64,000 nucleotides of DNA from Paracoccus sanguinis (GTDB lineage: Bacteria > Pseudomonadota > Alphaproteobacteria > Rhodobacterales > Rhodobacteraceae). The first letter of the stretch is position 1; each line of letters begins with the position of its first letter. The DNA is taken from positions 310,001-374,000 of the forward strand of contig NZ_FNNA01000002.1 in the NCBI RefSeq assembly GCF_900106665.1, given 5' to 3'. Below the pieces are notes generated by a model, which was not told the DNA's origin, searched no databases, and saw only the letters and a list, made by a program, of their open reading frames with translations. Below are positions 1,799 to 59,770 of the stretch, piece after piece. Both the position numbers and the translations under genes were made by a program.

Positions 1799-1813
1799 TT
1801 CACCCGGCCTTAA
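1799..1813 (+). promoter_or_regulatory. Degenerate CtrA-type box upstream of sciP
   Basis: The sequence TTCA, seven bases, then TTAA is one base off the CtrA consensus TTAA-N7-TTAA. It lies about 50 bp upstream of the sciP ATG and is also upstream of mnmA on the opposite strand. This fits the known CtrA control of sciP in alphaproteobacteria, but a one-mismatch match of this length can arise by chance. Confidence 0.35.
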
Positions 1814-1861
1814 CGGCGGCCGTGTCAGGAACGCCTCACGACCCGATCCGAAAGGCCCGCC

Positions 1862-2137
1862 ATGTTCGTCCGCAAGACCCCCGGCCCGCGCACCGTGACC
1901 CTCCCCGACGGCTCGATCCTCAGCCGTGCGGACTTGCCGCGCACCACCGACCGCTGGGTGGCGCGGCGCAAGGCGGTCGTGGTGCAGGCGGTGGAACACG
2001 GGCTGCTCAGCCGCGACGAGGCGAGCGACCGCTACGCCCTGACCGAAGAGGAGCTCGACTGCTGGATCGCCGCCGTGGCGCGCGAGGGGGCGGCGGCGCT
2101 CAAGGTCAAGGCCATCCGCCGCAAATCGCCGGATTGA
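1862..2137 (+). CDS. sciP: CtrA inhibitor SciP (DUF1153 family)
   Basis: Small cytoplasmic protein of 91 residues with a Trp- and Arg-rich helix-turn-helix core ([11 protein letters not shown] near residue 40, then a [11 protein letters not shown] segment near residue 60). This is the DUF1153/SciP pattern. In Caulobacter, SciP binds CtrA and DNA and blocks transcription activation by CtrA in early G1. Here it directly precedes ctrA on the same strand with a 96-bp gap, which supports the call. The ATG at 1862 follows a purine-rich GAAAGGCCCGCC leader. Function in this organism is inferred from the family and the neighbour. Confidence 0.88.
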
Positions 2138-2166
2138 TCAACCTGCGGTAGATTTCTGTTGACCTG

Positions 2167-2181
2167 CTAACCGTAAATTAA
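2167..2181 (+). promoter_or_regulatory. CtrA-type box upstream of ctrA
   Basis: CTAA, seven bases (ccgtaaa), then TTAA, followed by C. This is one mismatch from TTAA-N7-TTAA and stands out as an AT-rich island in GC-rich DNA. It lies 53-67 bp before the ctrA ATG, the right place for autoregulation or for SciP/CtrA action. Inference from motif and position only. Confidence 0.5.
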
Positions 2182-2233
2182 CGATTCCTCGGGCAGGGTG
2201 CCGGGAAAGAGAGGGCACCGAAAGGGGACGGAA

Positions 2234-2947
<714 letters not shown>

Positions 2948-3011
2948 AAGCGCGGGGCGAGGCTTCGGCACGGGTGGGAGCGGATTCGGTGGAGGTTGGC
3001 CTCGGGGCTTG

Positions 3012-3760
3012 AGCGCCGCGCGTTAGTGGCCGGCTTTCCGCAGCAGAGCGAGTGCGCAGTCCCGGTCGCGGCGTTCGCCGGGCGGGTGATGCTCTCCGCC
3101 GCAGAGCGCGAGGGCACGGCCTGTCACGGTGACCGCCGGACCCGCGGGGCACTGCCTAGCAGAGCGCGCTCGGCGCGACCCGGTCACCATAAGCGCCGGA
3201 CGGCGGTTTTCGCAGCAGGGCGGGTGCGTGGCCCTGTCTTAATGACCGGCGGAGCGACGGGTCTCCGCCATAGAGCGCGAGGGCACGTTCAGTCGCTGTG
3301 ACCGCCGGACCCGCGGGGCTTTGTCCAGCAGAGCGTGAGGAGCGCGCCCCGATCACCATGAGCGCCGCACAGGCGGGGTTCTGCAGCAGAGCGGATGCAC
3401 GGCCCTGTCTTAGTGTCCGGCGGACCGACGGGGTCTCCGCCGCAGAGCGCGACGGCACGGCCAGTCGCGGTGATCGCCGGCCAGCGGTGCATTGCGCAGC
3501 AGAGCGCGAGGGGCGCGACCCCGGTCCCCCGTGAGCGCCGACCGGGCGGGGTTTCCGCAGGACGGCATGGGCGGACCGCCCGGTCGCGATGACCGCCGGA
3601 CGGTGGGGGCTCCCCTGCAGGGCGCGGGGTCGCGGCCATTCGCGGTGGGCGCCGGACGGGCAGGGTTTCCGCAGCAGGGCATGGGTGCACGGCCCGGTCG
3701 CGGTGATTGCCGAGCAGGCGGGGCTTTGAGCAGCGGGGCGTGTGGTCATGGCCGGTGGCA
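3012..3760. repeat. Degenerate tandem array: ~13 copies of a ~57-bp unit, with a ~171-bp higher-order period
   Basis: Units begin near 3012, 3073, 3131, 3191, 3244, 3300, 3360, 3415, 3472, 3533, 3591, 3647 and 3705. Each starts with a form of GACCGCCGGAC, passes through GCAGCAGAGCG and ends with GGTCGCGGT, so unit junctions often carry the dyad GCGGTGACCGC. Neighbouring units differ, but every third one is more alike (3131, 3300 and 3472 share CCCGCGGGGC and a GATCACC-like end; 3191 and 3360 share GGCCCTGTCTTA). Spacing of like units is 169-173 bp. Unit lengths vary from 53 to 61 bp and are not multiples of three, so no reading frame is preserved. Function unknown. Confidence 0.85.
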
Positions 3761-4038
3761 GTCAGGGCCGGTCGAAAGTCCGCGGTTGGGCGTGGCGGGC
3801 TCGACGCTACTCCACGGGCAAGTCCCCCAACCCGATTCCCCTGCGCCGTCCGCCATCCACTTCATCGCGCCGTCCACCATCCCTCCCCCGGGCCGTCCGC
3901 TACGCCCTTCCCCAGCGCCGGCGCCAGCGCTTACCCCGCCGTCTCCGTCCCCGCCCTCCCCCCTTTCCCCCGCCGCCTCATCGCGCCATGCTGCCCGGGC
4001 CGCGGACACGACGGCACCACCGACAGGACCACCCCCGC
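3761..4038. other. Gene-free, cytosine-rich leader before the nucleoside hydrolase gene
   Basis: Between the repeat array and the nucleoside hydrolase ATG lies a pyrimidine-rich stretch (many CCGCC, TCCCC and CGCCG runs). No conserved protein, RNA or clear promoter could be recognised. The reading frames that cross it have no recognisable domain. Confidence 0.5.
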
Positions 4039-4983
4039 ATGGCGCAGAAGATCATCATCGACACCGACCCCGGCCAGGACGATGCCGTGGCGATCCTGCT
4101 GGCGCTCGCCTCGCCCGAGCTCGAGGTGCTGGGGATCACGGCGGTGGCGGGCAACGTGCCGCTGCCGCTCACGCTGCGCAACGCCCGCGCGATCTGCGAG
4201 CTGGCCGGGCGCCCCGACATCCCCGTCTACGCCGGGTGCGACGCGCCGCTCGAGGGGCGGCTCGTCACCGCCGAGAACGTCCACGGCGCGACCGGCCTCG
4301 ACGGGATCACCCTGCCCGAGCCGACCATGCCCGTGCAGGACCGCCACGCGGTCGATTTCCTCGTCGAGACGCTGCGCCACGAACCCGCGGGCAGCGTCAC
4401 CCTCGTCCCGATCGGCCCGCTCACCAACATCGCCGCGGCCTTCCGGCAGGCACCCGACGTCATCGCCCGTGTCGGCCGCATCGTCATGATGGGCGGGGCC
4501 TATTTCGAGGTCGGCAACGTCACCCCGGCGGCCGAGTTCAACATCTTCGTCGACCCCCTCGCCGCGGCCGAGGTCTTCGCCGCCGGCGCCGATCTCGTCG
4601 TCATGCCCCTCGACGTCACCCACCGCGCGCTCACCAGCCGCGCCTGGGTCGAGGGGATGCGGGCAAGCGGCCGGGTGGGCGAGGTCGTGGCGAGCTGGAC
4701 GGATTTCTTCGAGCGCTACGACCGGGCGAAATACGGCCACGACGGGGCGCCGCTGCACGACCCCTGCGCGGTCGCCTATCTCATCGCGCCCGAACTCTTC
4801 TCGGGCCGTCGGATCAACGTCGAGATCGAGACCGAGGGCCGCTTCACCCGCGGCATGACCGTCGCCGACTGGTGGGGCGTGTCCGGGCGCCCGGCGAACG
4901 CGCTCTTCATCCGCGACCTCGACGCGCCGCGGTTCTTCGACCTGCTGACCGAGCGCATCGGGCGGCTCGACGCCCGCGGGTGA
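4039..4983 (+). CDS. Nucleoside hydrolase (IunH/RihA family)
   Basis: Hydrolyses the N-glycosidic bond of ribonucleosides in salvage, releasing base and ribose; cytoplasmic, calcium-dependent family. The protein starts MAQKIIIDTDPGQDDA, whose DTDPGQDD Asp cluster is the calcium and ribose site. A second family segment, GPLTNIAAA, lies near residue 140, and LHDPCAVA near residue 240 supplies the late Asp. Length 314 residues is typical. The ATG at 4039 is chosen because homology begins there; longer versions run into low-complexity DNA. Substrate preference (inosine, uridine or pyrimidine) cannot be read from sequence. It stands alone after the repeat array. Confidence 0.93.
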   Translation: MAQKIIIDTDPGQDDAVAILLALASPELEVLGITAVAGNVPLPLTLRNARAICELAGRPDIPVYAGCDAPLEGRLVTAENVHGATGLDGITLPEPTMPVQDRHAVDFLVETLRHEPAGSVTLVPIGPLTNIAAAFRQAPDVIARVGRIVMMGGAYFEVGNVTPAAEFNIFVDPLAAAEVFAAGADLVVMPLDVTHRALTSRAWVEGMRASGRVGEVVASWTDFFERYDRAKYGHDGAPLHDPCAVAYLIAPELFSGRRINVEIETEGRFTRGMTVADWWGVSGRPANALFIRDLDAPRFFDLLTERIGRLDARG

Positions 4984-12402: not shown

Positions 12403-12960
12403 TCAGTTCGACGGGGCCGGGGTGGTCACCGGGGTGGTGGTCGTGGTCGAGGTGGTGGCCGAGTCGGTCGCCGGGGTGGTGGCCGTGTCGGTCACCGGGG
12501 CGGTCGTCGTGGTCTCGGTCGTGGTGGTCTCGGTCGTCGCCGCGCCGGTCGCCGGGGCGGTGGTCGCCGGCTCGGTGGTCGTGGTGGTCGTCGCGGGCGC
12601 GGTGGTCGCCGGCTCGGTGGTGGTCACCGGGGCGGTCGTGCTCGACGAGGTGGTCGCCGGCTCGGTCGTGGTGGTCGTCGGCGTGGTGGTCGTCGTGGTC
12701 GCCGGCGCCGTGGTGGTGCTGGTCGTGGTGGTGTCGGTCGTGGTCGTGGTGCGGTCACCGCCCATGAACGTCGACAGCAGCCACCAGGCGAGCGCCAGCG
12801 CCAGCAGGATGCCGATGATCAGCGGCAGCGGCGAGGCTTTCTTCTCGACCGGCTCGACATAGGTTTCGGTCACGACGGTGCTGCGACCGCTCGGATCCAC
12901 CGGACGGTGGGGGTCGGTCGCGTCGGTGCGGCGCGGATCGTTCGGATCGTAGTTGGCCAT
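12403..12960 (-). CDS. Thr/Ala/Pro-rich single-pass membrane protein
   Basis: 185 residues. A polar N-terminus (MANYDPNDPRR and following) precedes one transmembrane helix near residues 50-68 (LPLIIGILLALALAWWLL). The tail, residues 75-185, consists almost only of T, A, P and V (repeats of TTTT, PATT and APATT) and is likely an extended periplasmic linker or brush. ATG at 12960 is preceded by GGAGACC. It resembles in style the linkers of the PRC-barrel proteins at 32753 and 34146. No enzyme domain is present and the function is unknown. It is divergent from pepN. Confidence 0.75.
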   Translation of the reverse strand: MANYDPNDPRRTDATDPHRPVDPSGRSTVVTETYVEPVEKKASPLPLIIGILLALALAWWLLSTFMGGDRTTTTTDTTTTSTTTAPATTTTTTPTTTTTEPATTSSSTTAPVTTTEPATTAPATTTTTTEPATTAPATGAATTETTTTETTTTAPVTDTATTPATDSATTSTTTTTPVTTPAPSN

Positions 12961-32752: not shown

Positions 32753-33967
32753 TCAGTTGCGGGTGTAGGCCGTCAGGTTTTCGATCTGGTCGGCGGGGGT
32801 GCCGACATAGGCCTCGAGGTCGCCCGCGGCGGTGCGCTGGAACGAGATCTGGTCCAGCGGGTAGGAAACCTGACGCTCGCCGATCCCGAGGAAACCGCCC
32901 ACCGACACGATGGCCGCGTTGTTCGCGGCGTCGAAGGCGTCGATCTCGCCGATTTCGCGGTAGTCGTTGCCTTCGCGGGCAAAGACCTGCAGCCCGTCGA
33001 GGCCCTCGCCGGTCACTTCACCGGCCGGGACGGCGGTATAGCCCTCACGCAGCGCGATGTCCGAGGCCATCACCGGGGCCACGGCCACGGTGCCGTCGGC
33101 GGGCGCCGCGGCGGGGTCCGCGGCCGGGGCAGCGGCGCCGGCGGCGGGGGTCGCGCCGGTCACGTTGACCGCGGCATCACCCTGCTCGACCTTGACCTGA
33201 GCCTCGCCGGCCTTCTCGACCGCGACTTCCGGGGCCGGGGCGGCGCCGACGTTGACCTGCGCTTCGCCGGTCTGCTGGACGTCGACGGTGGCCTCGTTCT
33301 GGCGGATCTCGACCTGGGCCTCGTTGGCCTTGGTCACCTCGACCTGCGCCTCGGCGTCGGTCACGTTGACCTTCGCATCGGCGCTCTCGACCACGACGCG
33401 CGGCTCGGGCTGGACGAAGGAGACGACCGGCTCGGGCACGTCGACGGTGACCACCGGGGTCACGTCACCCACGGTCACGACCGGATCGGGCAGCGCGACC
33501 GAGACGACCGGCTGCGGGATGTTGACGGTGACGGTCGGCTCGGCCTGGGTCACGGTGATCTTCGGGGCGCACTGCTCGACGTTCACCTCGGGCGGGGCCT
33601 GGGTGACGGTCACGGTCGGCTCGGGCTGTTCCACAGTCACCTGCGGCGCGGGCTGGTTCACCTTGACGTCCGGGGTCGGCACGTTGACGTTCACGGTCGG
33701 CTCGGCCTGCTGGACGACGACCTGGCCGCCGGGGACGGCAACGGTCGCGTCGGTCGCCGGGGCGACGGCGGGGGCGGTGGTTGCCGCATCGGTCGCGGCC
33801 GGGGCCGTGGTCGCCGCGTCGGTTGCCGCAGGCGCGGTCGCCGCAGGCGCGGTCGCATCGGCGGCGGGCGCGGTCGTCTCGGCCGGGGCCGGGGCCGTCT
33901 GGGCCATCGCGCCGGCTGCGACGAAGGACAGGGCGGCCGCGGTGCCCAGAAGCTGCTTGATCATCAT
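32753..33967 (-). CDS. PRC-barrel envelope protein with beta-repeat linker
   Basis: 404 residues. A signal peptide (LLGTAAALSFVAAGAMA, ending AQT) comes first. Then an Ala/Thr/Pro-rich stretch to about residue 85. Residues 85-250 are about 14 repeats of a ~10-residue beta pattern, P-x-V-x-V-x-Q, shown as EPTVTVTQA and similar. A second Ala/Pro-rich stretch follows. Residues 315-400 form a PRC-barrel-like domain with SVGGFLGIGERQVSYPLDQI. It is probably periplasmic. Function unknown. It is the twin of the gene at 34146, with a hairpin between them. ATG at 33967 is used; 33964 is also possible. Confidence 0.85.
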   Translation of the reverse strand: MMIKQLLGTAAALSFVAAGAMAQTAPAPAETTAPAADATAPAATAPAATDAATTAPAATDAATTAPAVAPATDATVAVPGGQVVVQQAEPTVNVNVPTPDVKVNQPAPQVTVEQPEPTVTVTQAPPEVNVEQCAPKITVTQAEPTVTVNIPQPVVSVALPDPVVTVGDVTPVVTVDVPEPVVSFVQPEPRVVVESADAKVNVTDAEAQVEVTKANEAQVEIRQNEATVDVQQTGEAQVNVGAAPAPEVAVEKAGEAQVKVEQGDAAVNVTGATPAAGAAAPAADPAAAPADGTVAVAPVMASDIALREGYTAVPAGEVTGEGLDGLQVFAREGNDYREIGEIDAFDAANNAAIVSVGGFLGIGERQVSYPLDQISFQRTAAGDLEAYVGTPADQIENLTAYTRN

Positions 33968-34079
33968 GGGGAGTTTCCTCTCGGTCATTCTAAGGTCATT
34001 TTTGTTATGACGTGCCCGCCGGTGTCTCAGGCATCGGTGTCACAACAACTTGACCCGCCTCGGGTTCCCCAGAATTGGA

Positions 34080-34102
34080 AAGGGCGCCCCGGGGGCGCCC
34101 TT
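34080..34102 (-). terminator. Hairpin between the two PRC-barrel genes
   Basis: Perfect 10-bp stem (34080-34089 with 34093-34102, loop cgg), 43 bp after the stop of the smaller gene, with TTTCCAATTC following on the minus strand. Confidence 0.65.
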
Positions 34103-34145
34103 GTTCTTTGTTAAGTGGGGTGGCCGCCGCGATGGCAGCCACGGA

Positions 34146-34940
34146 TCACTTGAGCACGGTGGTCGAGTCGAAGTCGGGCAGCGCCTCGAGCTCTTCCTTG
34201 GTGAAGTTGGTCGCGTAGAACACGTCGTCACCGATGCGGACCAGGTGCAGGGCGTCTTTGCCCAGCAGCACGGTCTTGGCGCCGAGGCCCAGGAACCCGC
34301 CGATGTCAGCGGTGTAGCCCATGATGTTGCCCTCGGGGTCGACCACGATGTCGCCGACCTTGGCGATGTCGGTCCACTCGGCCGGACGCTCGGTCATGGT
34401 CGTATCGGCCCACGCGGTCGAGGACGGCTGGTTGGTCGTCCAGATCCGGCGGTTCATGATGTAGGAACCGAGCAGACCGGGGTTCTCGGCCGACATCACA
34501 GGCGCGTCGACGTCGGGGGCCACGACAACGGCGTCAGCCGGGGTCGCGGTGGTCGCCGTGGTGGTGGTCGTCGCGGCCGGCGCCGTGGTGGTGGTCGCAG
34601 CCGGAGCGGTCGTGGTCGTGGTGGTCGCGGTGCCCGCGGTCGCGGCCGCGTCGGCCTTGTCCTCGGCCTTGTCCGCCGCATCCTCGGCGCGGTCGGCGGC
34701 ATCCTCGGCCTTGTCGGCGGCCGAGGTCGTCACGGCCTCGTCGACCTTGTTGCCGGCGGCATCAACCGCGTTCTCGGCCTTGTCGGCGGCGTCCTCGGCC
34801 TTGTCGCCCGCGGCGGCCACCGGGTCGGCGACGGTCGTGGTGGTGGTCGTGGCCGGTGCAGGCGCCGGGGCGGCGGTCTGCGCCATGGCGAAACCGGTCA
34901 GCGCAAGCGACGAGGTCGCGGCGAGAAGCAAAGCTTTCAT
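34146..34940 (-). CDS. PRC-barrel envelope protein with DKAED coiled repeats
   Basis: 264 residues. A signal peptide ends near residue 22 (ALTGFAMA). Thr-rich and Ala-rich linkers flank a helical region with repeated DKAEDAADKAE (residues 45-100), likely an alpha-helical coil. A PRC-barrel domain occupies roughly residues 190-255, with IGGFLGLGAKTVLLGKDALHL. It shares domain order and the FLGLG/FLGIG block with the protein at 32753, so the two probably arose by duplication. Periplasmic or envelope-bound. Function unknown. Confidence 0.85.
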   Translation of the reverse strand: MKALLLAATSSLALTGFAMAQTAAPAPAPATTTTTTVADPVAAAGDKAEDAADKAENAVDAAGNKVDEAVTTSAADKAEDAADRAEDAADKAEDKADAAATAGTATTTTTTAPAATTTTAPAATTTTTATTATPADAVVVAPDVDAPVMSAENPGLLGSYIMNRRIWTTNQPSSTAWADTTMTERPAEWTDIAKVGDIVVDPEGNIMGYTADIGGFLGLGAKTVLLGKDALHLVRIGDDVFYATNFTKEELEALPDFDSTTVLK

Positions 34941-58327: not shown

Positions 58328-59497
58328 TCAGGAGGCCGAGCGCGCTGTTGCCACCGGCGCGTCGCCCGGACCGGTCCCCGCGGCCGGTGCGCCAGCCTCT
58401 GCCAGCGCGGCGGCGCGCTGCTCGACCAGCTCGACGATGTGGTCGATCATCTGCGCGTTCGACATCTTGTGGCTCTGCCGCCCGGCCACATAGACCATCC
58501 CCGACCCCGCGCCCCCGCCCGTGAAGCCGAGGTCGGTCATCAACGCCTCGCCCGGCCCGTTCACCACGCAGCCGATGATCGACAGGCTCATCGGCGTCTT
58601 GATGTGCTCGAGCCGCTTTTCCAGCGCCTCGACGGTGGCGATCACGTCGAACCCCTGCCGCGCGCAGCTCGGGCACGAGATGATCTGCACCCCCCGCGTC
58701 CGCAGCCCCAGCGACTTCAGGATCTCGTAGCCGACCTTCACCTCCTCGACCGGATCGGCCGAGAGGGAGACGCGGATCGTGTCGCCGATTCCCATCCACA
58801 GCAGGTTGCCCATCCCCACCGCCGACTTGACCGTGCCGCCGCGCAAGCCCCCCGCCTCGGTGATCCCGAGGTGGATCGGCGCGTCCGTCGCCTCGGCCAG
58901 CTGCTGGTACGCGGCGGCGGCGAGGAACACGTCGGACGCCTTCACGCTGATCTTGAACTCGTGGAAATCGTTGTCCTGCAACAGCTTGATGTGATCGAGC
59001 CCGCTTTCGACCATGGCCGCCGGGCAGGGCTCACCGTATTTTTCCAGCAGGTGCCGTTCGAGGCTGCCGGCGTTGACGCCGATGCGGATCGAGCAGCCGT
59101 GGTCCTTGGCCGCCTGCACCACCTCGCGCACGCGGGCGGCGTCGCCGATGTTGCCGGGGTTGATCCGCAGGCAGGCGGCGCCTGCCTCGGCCGCCTCGAT
59201 GGCGCGGCGGTAGTGGAAGTGGATGTCGGCGACGATCGGCACCGGGCTTTCCCGGCAGATCTCGCGCAGGGCCCGCGTGGCGGCCTCATCGGGGGTCGAG
59301 ACGCGCACGATGTCCGCACCCGCATCGGCCGCCGCGATCACCTGCGCGAGGGTCGCGCGCACGTCGGTGCTGTCGGTGTTGGTCATCGTCTGGACGCTGA
59401 TCGGCGCGTCGCCGCCCACCGGGACGTTGCCGACCATGATCCGGCGGCTCGGCCGGCGGTCGATGTTGCGCCAGGGGCGGATCGGGTTGTGAGTCAT
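58328..59497 (-). CDS. ispG: 4-hydroxy-3-methylbut-2-en-1-yl diphosphate synthase
   Basis: 389-residue Fe-S enzyme of the MEP isoprenoid route, converting MEcPP to HMBPP. N-terminal [28 protein letters not shown] block ([18 protein letters not shown]), and C-terminal cluster Cys in SCPSCARQ and [11 protein letters not shown] at 59497 ([11 protein letters not shown]) is chosen; upstream lies a 7-bp tandem repeat. Downstream of the RodZ-like gene on the same strand, an order also seen in gammaproteobacteria. Confidence 0.96.
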
Positions 59498-59595
59498 CGC
59501 GCGGGGCCTTTCGCTGACGCGCGCCAGACATAGGCGCCGCGGAGGCCGGGGGCAACCGCGGGTGGGTCGGGCTGGGTGTGGGGGTGGGTGAGCGA

Positions 59596-59634
59596 GGTGA
59601 GCGGTGAGCGGTGAGCGGTGAGCGGTGAGCGGTG
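59596..59634. repeat. Heptanucleotide tandem repeat (GGTGAGC)5.6
   Basis: Five perfect copies of GGTGAGC plus GGTG, preceded by a diverged copy. It lies 99-137 bp before the ispG ATG, between it and the RodZ-like gene. Perfect short repeats can change copy number; 7 bp shifts would alter promoter spacing. Confidence 0.9.
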
Positions 59635-59770
59635 TCAATCAGCTGGCGCTCTGACCGTCGCCTAGATTCAACAAAACCGTACAGCCCGCCGAGCGCGGAT
59701 AGGCGACCCCACCCCGCCACCCAGCGCATCCCCTGCGCCGCTCAACCCCGGCCCAGCCGCCGCGCGCCGG

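Follow-up and report, generated by a model that had tools for sequence, protein, structure and literature searches.

The spacer behind the predicted ctrA gene of this Paracoccus sanguinis contig contains a tandem array whose 13 degenerate units are each about 57 bp long (3035–3778, plus strand; coordinates refer to the window, which is the whole stretch of 64,000 nucleotides analyzed). The array is 744 bp long, decayed, and without coding signal, and its central units follow a nested three-unit order. It is most likely a non-coding minisatellite that slipped-strand or unequal duplication produced in this lineage and that has since decayed mostly neutrally. Most of the array probably has no function.

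The gene preceding the array (2234–2947, plus strand) encodes an OmpR-type response regulator with matches to PF00072 and PF00486. We take it to be ctrA from knowledge of the family and from its upstream neighbor, a DUF1153 gene (1862–2137, plus strand; Pfam PF06627, E = 3e-31) that is presumably SciP-like. A DUF1153 match adjoins ctrA in 30 of 30 loci (L003–L032), and of 60 other genomes searched from the genus, 56 have a full-length CtrA match of 83–94% identity. The spacer measures 1,091 bp and ends at a nucleoside hydrolase gene (4039–4983, plus strand; PF01156, E = 6.8e-107). The remainder of the spacer beyond the array (3783–4038; GC 0.75) does not resemble the unit (P = 0.42) and carries a short repeat of its own, with a period of 24 (3843–3900, TRF), unrelated to the array. 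The CtrA box has the motif TTAA-N7-TTAA; with one mismatch, CtrA-box-like sites occur four times in the window, against 0.2 expected, among them sites at 2167–2187 before ctrA and at 1799–1813 before the DUF1153 gene. One base beyond the site upstream of ctrA lies a GATTC, an instance of GANTC. This pentanucleotide is strongly depleted in the whole window (57 sites versus a shuffle mean of 266), as would be expected of a CcrM-type methylation motif.

Periods of 57 and 171 bp are recovered alike by TRF, by a direct-repeat search, and by a lag test. TRF reports 3531–3739 with a period of 57 (3.6 copies, score 167) and 3093–3553 with a period of 169 (2.7 copies, score 595). Between 2948 and 3782, 29 pairs of shared 7-mers fall at lags of 53–61 (mean 2.1 and maximum 11 in 500 dinucleotide shuffles), and 71 pairs fall at lags of 164–176 (mean 2.4, maximum 12). 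A unit model derived from sequence only, built from a 14-row alignment that included a candidate unit u0 (2977–3034), gives 13 matches within 3035–3778, u1 to u13, with E-values from 6.8e-13 to 1.9e-7. The unit boundaries used in the alignment place successive starts 55–61 bp apart, and u1–u13 are 50–88% identical to one another. The 57-bp array of about 13 units that had been proposed at this locus is real, with 13 units, and its left border moves inward: the stretch 2948–3034 does not detectably resemble the unit (P = 0.62), and u0 was not recovered by the very model that included it, so that the array starts near 3035 and not at 2948. The 3′ end of ctrA is unsupported as the seed of the unit (local score 23 versus 18.3 for shuffles, P = 0.07). 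The 13 units stand head to tail with starts 55–61 bp apart, as in a minisatellite; repetition and divergence extend over the entire period, without the unrelated spacers between near-identical repeats that define a CRISPR array.

The higher-order core spans units u2–u9 (3093–3553, plus strand), is built from a trimer of about 171 bp in the order ABC-ABC-AB, and is bordered by other units on both sides. Corresponding units resemble each other closely: identities are 0.82–0.88 among u2, u5, and u8, 0.82 between u4 and u7, and 0.69–0.78 among u3, u6, and u9. Over the array, mean identity is 0.72 for units three positions apart (10 pairs), compared with 0.62 at a distance of one (12 pairs) and 0.64 at a distance of two (11 pairs). 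The excess likeness of every third unit amounts to +0.18 in u2–u9 (permutation P = 0.003) and is absent from u9–u13 (permutation P = 0.47). The right flank, u10–u13 (3552–3778, plus strand), accordingly lacks three-unit order; TRF finds a period of 57 on this side, and a likeness at 114 bp connects 3531–3611 with 3645–3725 (79%). Trimer blocks T1–T3 (3093–3608) are 78–83% identical among one another, block T4 (u11–u13) is 69–75% identical to them, and gaps of 1–3 nt separate the copies. The 171-bp periodicity, ascribed at first to the array as a whole, is thus strong in the core and missing from u9–u13, and the proposal that the array grew by duplicating a block of three units is supported for the core only.

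Within its own genome, the array occupies a single locus. A DNA search places the unit at this locus alone (40 candidates scored), and the profile reveals no second array in the 3.59-Mb genome, the next match having an E-value of 0.016 (150 scored of 13,050 first-look candidates). No array was found in 124 other genomes of the genus, one per species, either by DNA (4 candidates scored per genome) or by profile (44 per genome), a limited number of candidates on which this absence depends; of the full set of 125, 113 genomes have a completeness of 90% or more and a contamination of no more than 5%. By DNA, matches of 32–59 bp turned up in 14 genomes (E ≤ 1e-3, best 7.3e-5), each covering one piece of the array (12 of the 14 were aligned), and the profile gave one or two weak matches in 27 genomes (best E = 3.4e-4); the run of matches expected of an array appears in none of the 124. 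Nor was an array found in 393 sampled genomes from elsewhere in the family (2 candidates scored per genome), the one match being a 34-bp segment (E = 4.8e-6) in a locus devoid of tandem repeats, a site also reached via Rhodobaculum claviforme. With one locus in one genome and no array in those 124, the suggestion of a previously undescribed family of elements is not supported.

The surroundings of ctrA in related genomes bound the origin of the array. Sixty other genomes of the genus were searched with CtrA, and the best 29 yielded loci with 1.5-kb flanks (L004–L032). In five of them (L004, L005, L007, L008, and L009), ctrA is followed by the same hydrolase gene across a spacer of only ~165–200 bp that contains no unit; the hydrolase gene was not found behind ctrA in the other 24 congener loci or in four named Paracoccus loci. 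These short, array-free spacers indicate that the array was most simply gained in this lineage. Tandem arrays are also rare behind ctrA more broadly: among 109 loci (those of the 29 congeners plus 80 named ones, which include four from Paracoccus; 105 offer 1,400 nt or more), a TRF score of at least 90 was reached up to 1.5 kb downstream in one, by a 15-bp repeat unrelated to the array. In 400 kb sampled from the same contig, TRF lists 18 arrays with a score of at least 100 or a length of at least 150; every one has a period divisible by three, and these are therefore probably coding repeats. In the window itself, clusters of imperfect short repeats at 12439–12751 and 33401–34721, most with periods divisible by 3 (TRF), are probably low-complexity coding sequence. 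A perfect heptanucleotide repeat, GGTGAGC × 5.6 (59596–59634, TRF), lies close to the beginning of an ORF on the minus strand (58328–59638) that we take to be ispG, in its first few codons or upstream of it if the gene starts further in; this young, slippage-prone tract contrasts with the old array behind ctrA.

One homologous array came to light through a database protein. A reverse ORF of the array used as a query has a sole match among 1,523 candidates, a 322-residue protein encoded on a 4,447-bp ENA contig (E = 1.1e-30), hereafter P0001. Used as a query in turn, P0001 finds no homolog but itself among 7,993 candidates scored, and within the genus, it matches the array of the window only. 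Residues 2–69 correspond to the distal end of the array (3655–3861) with 52% identity, and residues 258–322 correspond to the ctrA-proximal end (3026–3220) with 84% identity. Between these matching ends, P0001 spans 960 nt versus 833 in the window, a difference of ~127 nt, and when it is cut into 20-residue pieces, these hit B, A, and C units again and again, in the order expected. Outside the array, similarity in the flank is weak (score 32, against a mean of 21 and a maximum of 36 for 60 shuffled controls). We infer that P0001 covers an array at the same locus, with roughly one block more.

These data are consistent with a stepwise origin. Monomers would have duplicated first; one trimer would then have been copied in its entirety, and the copies would have been blurred by point changes together with indels of 1–3 nt. 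The length of the array probably still shifts by about one block between close relatives, and the ctrA-proximal pair of units may have been co-opted as a 3′ hairpin of the ctrA message. The distribution of changes agrees with mostly neutral decay: their variance per unit column is 1.88, versus 1.45–1.77 in simulations, they do not cluster along the unit columns (P = 0.51), and change is spread evenly over the unit, with no site kept better than the rest. Against neutrality, the array is long-lasting for functionless DNA, as its units are only 50–88% alike and another contig carries a homologous array.

The first two units, u1 and u2, are both the best conserved and the site of the strongest predicted fold. 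In a scan of the plus strand, the segment starting at 3060 has the lowest z-score (−3.29) of 114, and a 92-nt hairpin is predicted at 3059–3150, beginning ~110 nt past the ctrA stop codon, with −64.9 kcal/mol and a z-score of −4.3 (3059–3151 has the same z-score, with 1 of 1000 shuffles as good). The borders of this hairpin were chosen after the scan, and another cut, 3023–3150, reaches a z-score of only −1.88 (8 of 200 shuffles as good). The overlapping stretch 3026–3151 is identical to P0001 residues 281–322 at 41 of 42 positions, far above the 52% at the distal end; together with the strongest fold at the same place, this suggests that the ctrA-proximal part of the array may be under constraint. 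The predicted hairpin of the first two units is perhaps the 3′ end of the ctrA message, a lead rather than a proof.

On this basis, the array could be regarded as a functional ctrA 3′ element, in which the u1–u2 hairpin would end or protect the transcript while the other units would be a tolerated by-product or a spacer ahead of the hydrolase gene. We consider this possible if doubtful. Congeners also carry folds behind ctrA: the best 95-nt fold within 200 nt has a median z-score of −1.98 in the 29 loci, three of which lie below the −3.15 of the window, each value being the best of several windows, a maximum without a null of its own. In 50-nt pieces, the window is weak (z = −0.48 versus a congener median of −1.97, with only 1 of 29 congeners weaker), although the 92-nt hairpin is too long to fit such pieces. 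Two further points speak against a 3′ element: no U-tract terminator was found in 2100–4200, and the homologous array is known as a predicted protein alone. A more elaborate version, in which the proximal pair is a selected terminal hairpin of the ctrA mRNA and the rest expands and shrinks by 171-bp blocks from lineage to lineage, thereby modulating readthrough into the next gene, strikes us as unlikely. If the proximal hairpin is real, it would be a case of a repeat supplying the 3′ end of a master regulator’s transcript. The RNA hairpin in every unit envisaged by the initial annotation does not hold beyond this one pair: a common fold of the units has 0 consensus pairs, and folding of the entire array is no stronger than that of its shuffles on either strand (z = 0.01 and 0.45). 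A search of region 1800–4200 against Rfam found nothing within the array at E ≤ 10.

A second idea, that the array binds CtrA, a nucleoid protein, or another factor at a GCGGTGACCGC-like dyad, we judge very improbable. The near-regular spacing of the units would suit such a role, as would the four sites in the array that differ from the dyad by one mismatch. The exact string GCGGTGACCGC, proposed earlier as a candidate protein or RNA hairpin site at unit junctions, is absent from the array, and the dyad is no better kept than its surroundings, with 2.36 changes per column versus 2.11 outside it. Nor does the array contain a TTAA-N7-TTAA with at most one mismatch, the four such sites of the window all lying outside it, and the proposed binding array for CtrA is not supported. 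Unit starts spaced 55–61 bp apart vary by more than half a helical turn, so that the sites would not face one side, and no array was found in the congeners. There are no G-quadruplexes in the array on either strand, and GGGNAGGG, which we take to be KOPS, occurs once in the array versus 28 times on both strands of the window.

The insertion of a mobile or dispersed repeat behind ctrA (a MITE, a MIRU-like element, or a phage-borne sequence) would account for a spacer ~0.9 kb longer than in the five syntenic relatives, and is nevertheless highly unlikely. Instead of the several genomic copies expected of a MITE, both the DNA and the profile search find one locus (40 and 150 candidates scored, respectively). 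Three inverted pairs are present in 2700–4100, and none frames the array as terminal inverted repeats would. Plasmid and phage collections contain no match to the array, and of 33 pattern matches among viral contigs, 0 were confirmed.

A repeat-protein gene with 19-residue units, or a recent pseudogene of one, is suggested by several features: 57 and 171 are both divisible by three, three of the six frames of the 171-bp trimer consensus are open, a 197-aa reverse ORF runs over the array, and the 322-aa ORF of P0001 is predicted over the homologous one. The composition of the array argues otherwise. Its G+C content by codon position is flat (0.73/0.72/0.76), compared with 0.63–0.77/0.33–0.53/0.94–0.98 in five neighboring ORFs taken as genes, three of which have Pfam matches. 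Codon scores range from −0.72 to −0.93 over the six frames of the array and from −0.67 to −0.87 over those of the trimer consensus, whereas three of those five ORFs, also part of the training set, score +0.66 to +0.80 in frame. The 197-aa ORF scores −0.71, a value reached by 17 of 1000 base shuffles; it therefore beats its own shuffles, which counts against the non-coding reading, but remains far below genes. Neither of two reverse ORFs tested has a Pfam domain, and the 133-aa reverse ORF (3289–3687), used as a protein query, gave no match among 128 candidates. The gaps of 1–3 nt between copies also disagree with a repeated frame. Finally, P0001 matches frames −1, −2, and −3 of the window, so that the counterpart of its single ORF is spread over all three reverse frames, and no frame is kept in the only homolog found; a conserved protein frame is precisely what the initial annotation had named as evidence against its non-coding view. 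That view stands on composition, codon scores, gaps, and frames, while the reason originally given, lengths that are not multiples of three, is a weak one. A repeat-protein gene is thus scarcely credible, and P0001 is very likely a spurious protein, a gene call across an array without coding signal here. Arrays such as 3035–3778 can place very likely spurious proteins in databases.

The minisatellite reading sets the array in a known general class, the intergenic minisatellites or VNTR loci of bacteria. It shares with them head-to-tail units of tens of base pairs in a spacer, a non-coding nature, restriction to a lineage, and a homolog of different length; it differs in the strong decay of its present units (50–88%) and in the three-unit block nested within it. 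The latter recalls the higher-order satellites of eukaryotes such as alpha satellite, in which an ordered multi-monomer block occupies the center and disordered monomers lie at the edges. Both have an ordered core and disordered edge units, but the present array is bacterial, shorter than 1 kb, and built from a 57-bp monomer, and the 171 bp common to both is a numerical coincidence. The available part of the Borg study (PMC9879509) describes tandem repeats that arose independently, are partly intergenic, and have intergenic unit lengths mostly indivisible by three, with slippage discussed as a possible origin. Those repeats are likewise tandem and in part intergenic, yet they are perfect, A-enriched, and genome-wide according to that part, in contrast to the one G+C-rich, decayed array described here (PMC9879509). 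BrickBuilt of Porphyromonas gingivalis, as far as the accessible text goes, is a minisatellite-in-MITE with 23-nt units and a leader and tail with inverted repeats, found at 19 places in one genome and endowed with promoter activity (PMC4596501). Like the array behind ctrA, it is an intergenic, species-restricted minisatellite; unlike BrickBuilt, our array has one locus and no framing inverted repeats (PMC4596501). Among the published systems compared, these two are the closest in kind, and the accessible portion of neither text shows a decayed array with nested three-unit order (PMC9879509, PMC4596501). Judged by title and abstract, no paper among the matches listed gives an account of this array or of a higher-order minisatellite in Paracoccus. 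The array is ordinary in kind and instructive in structure: it displays the core-and-edge order of eukaryotic satellites in less than 1 kb of bacterial DNA, with an origin bounded by five array-free syntenic congeners.
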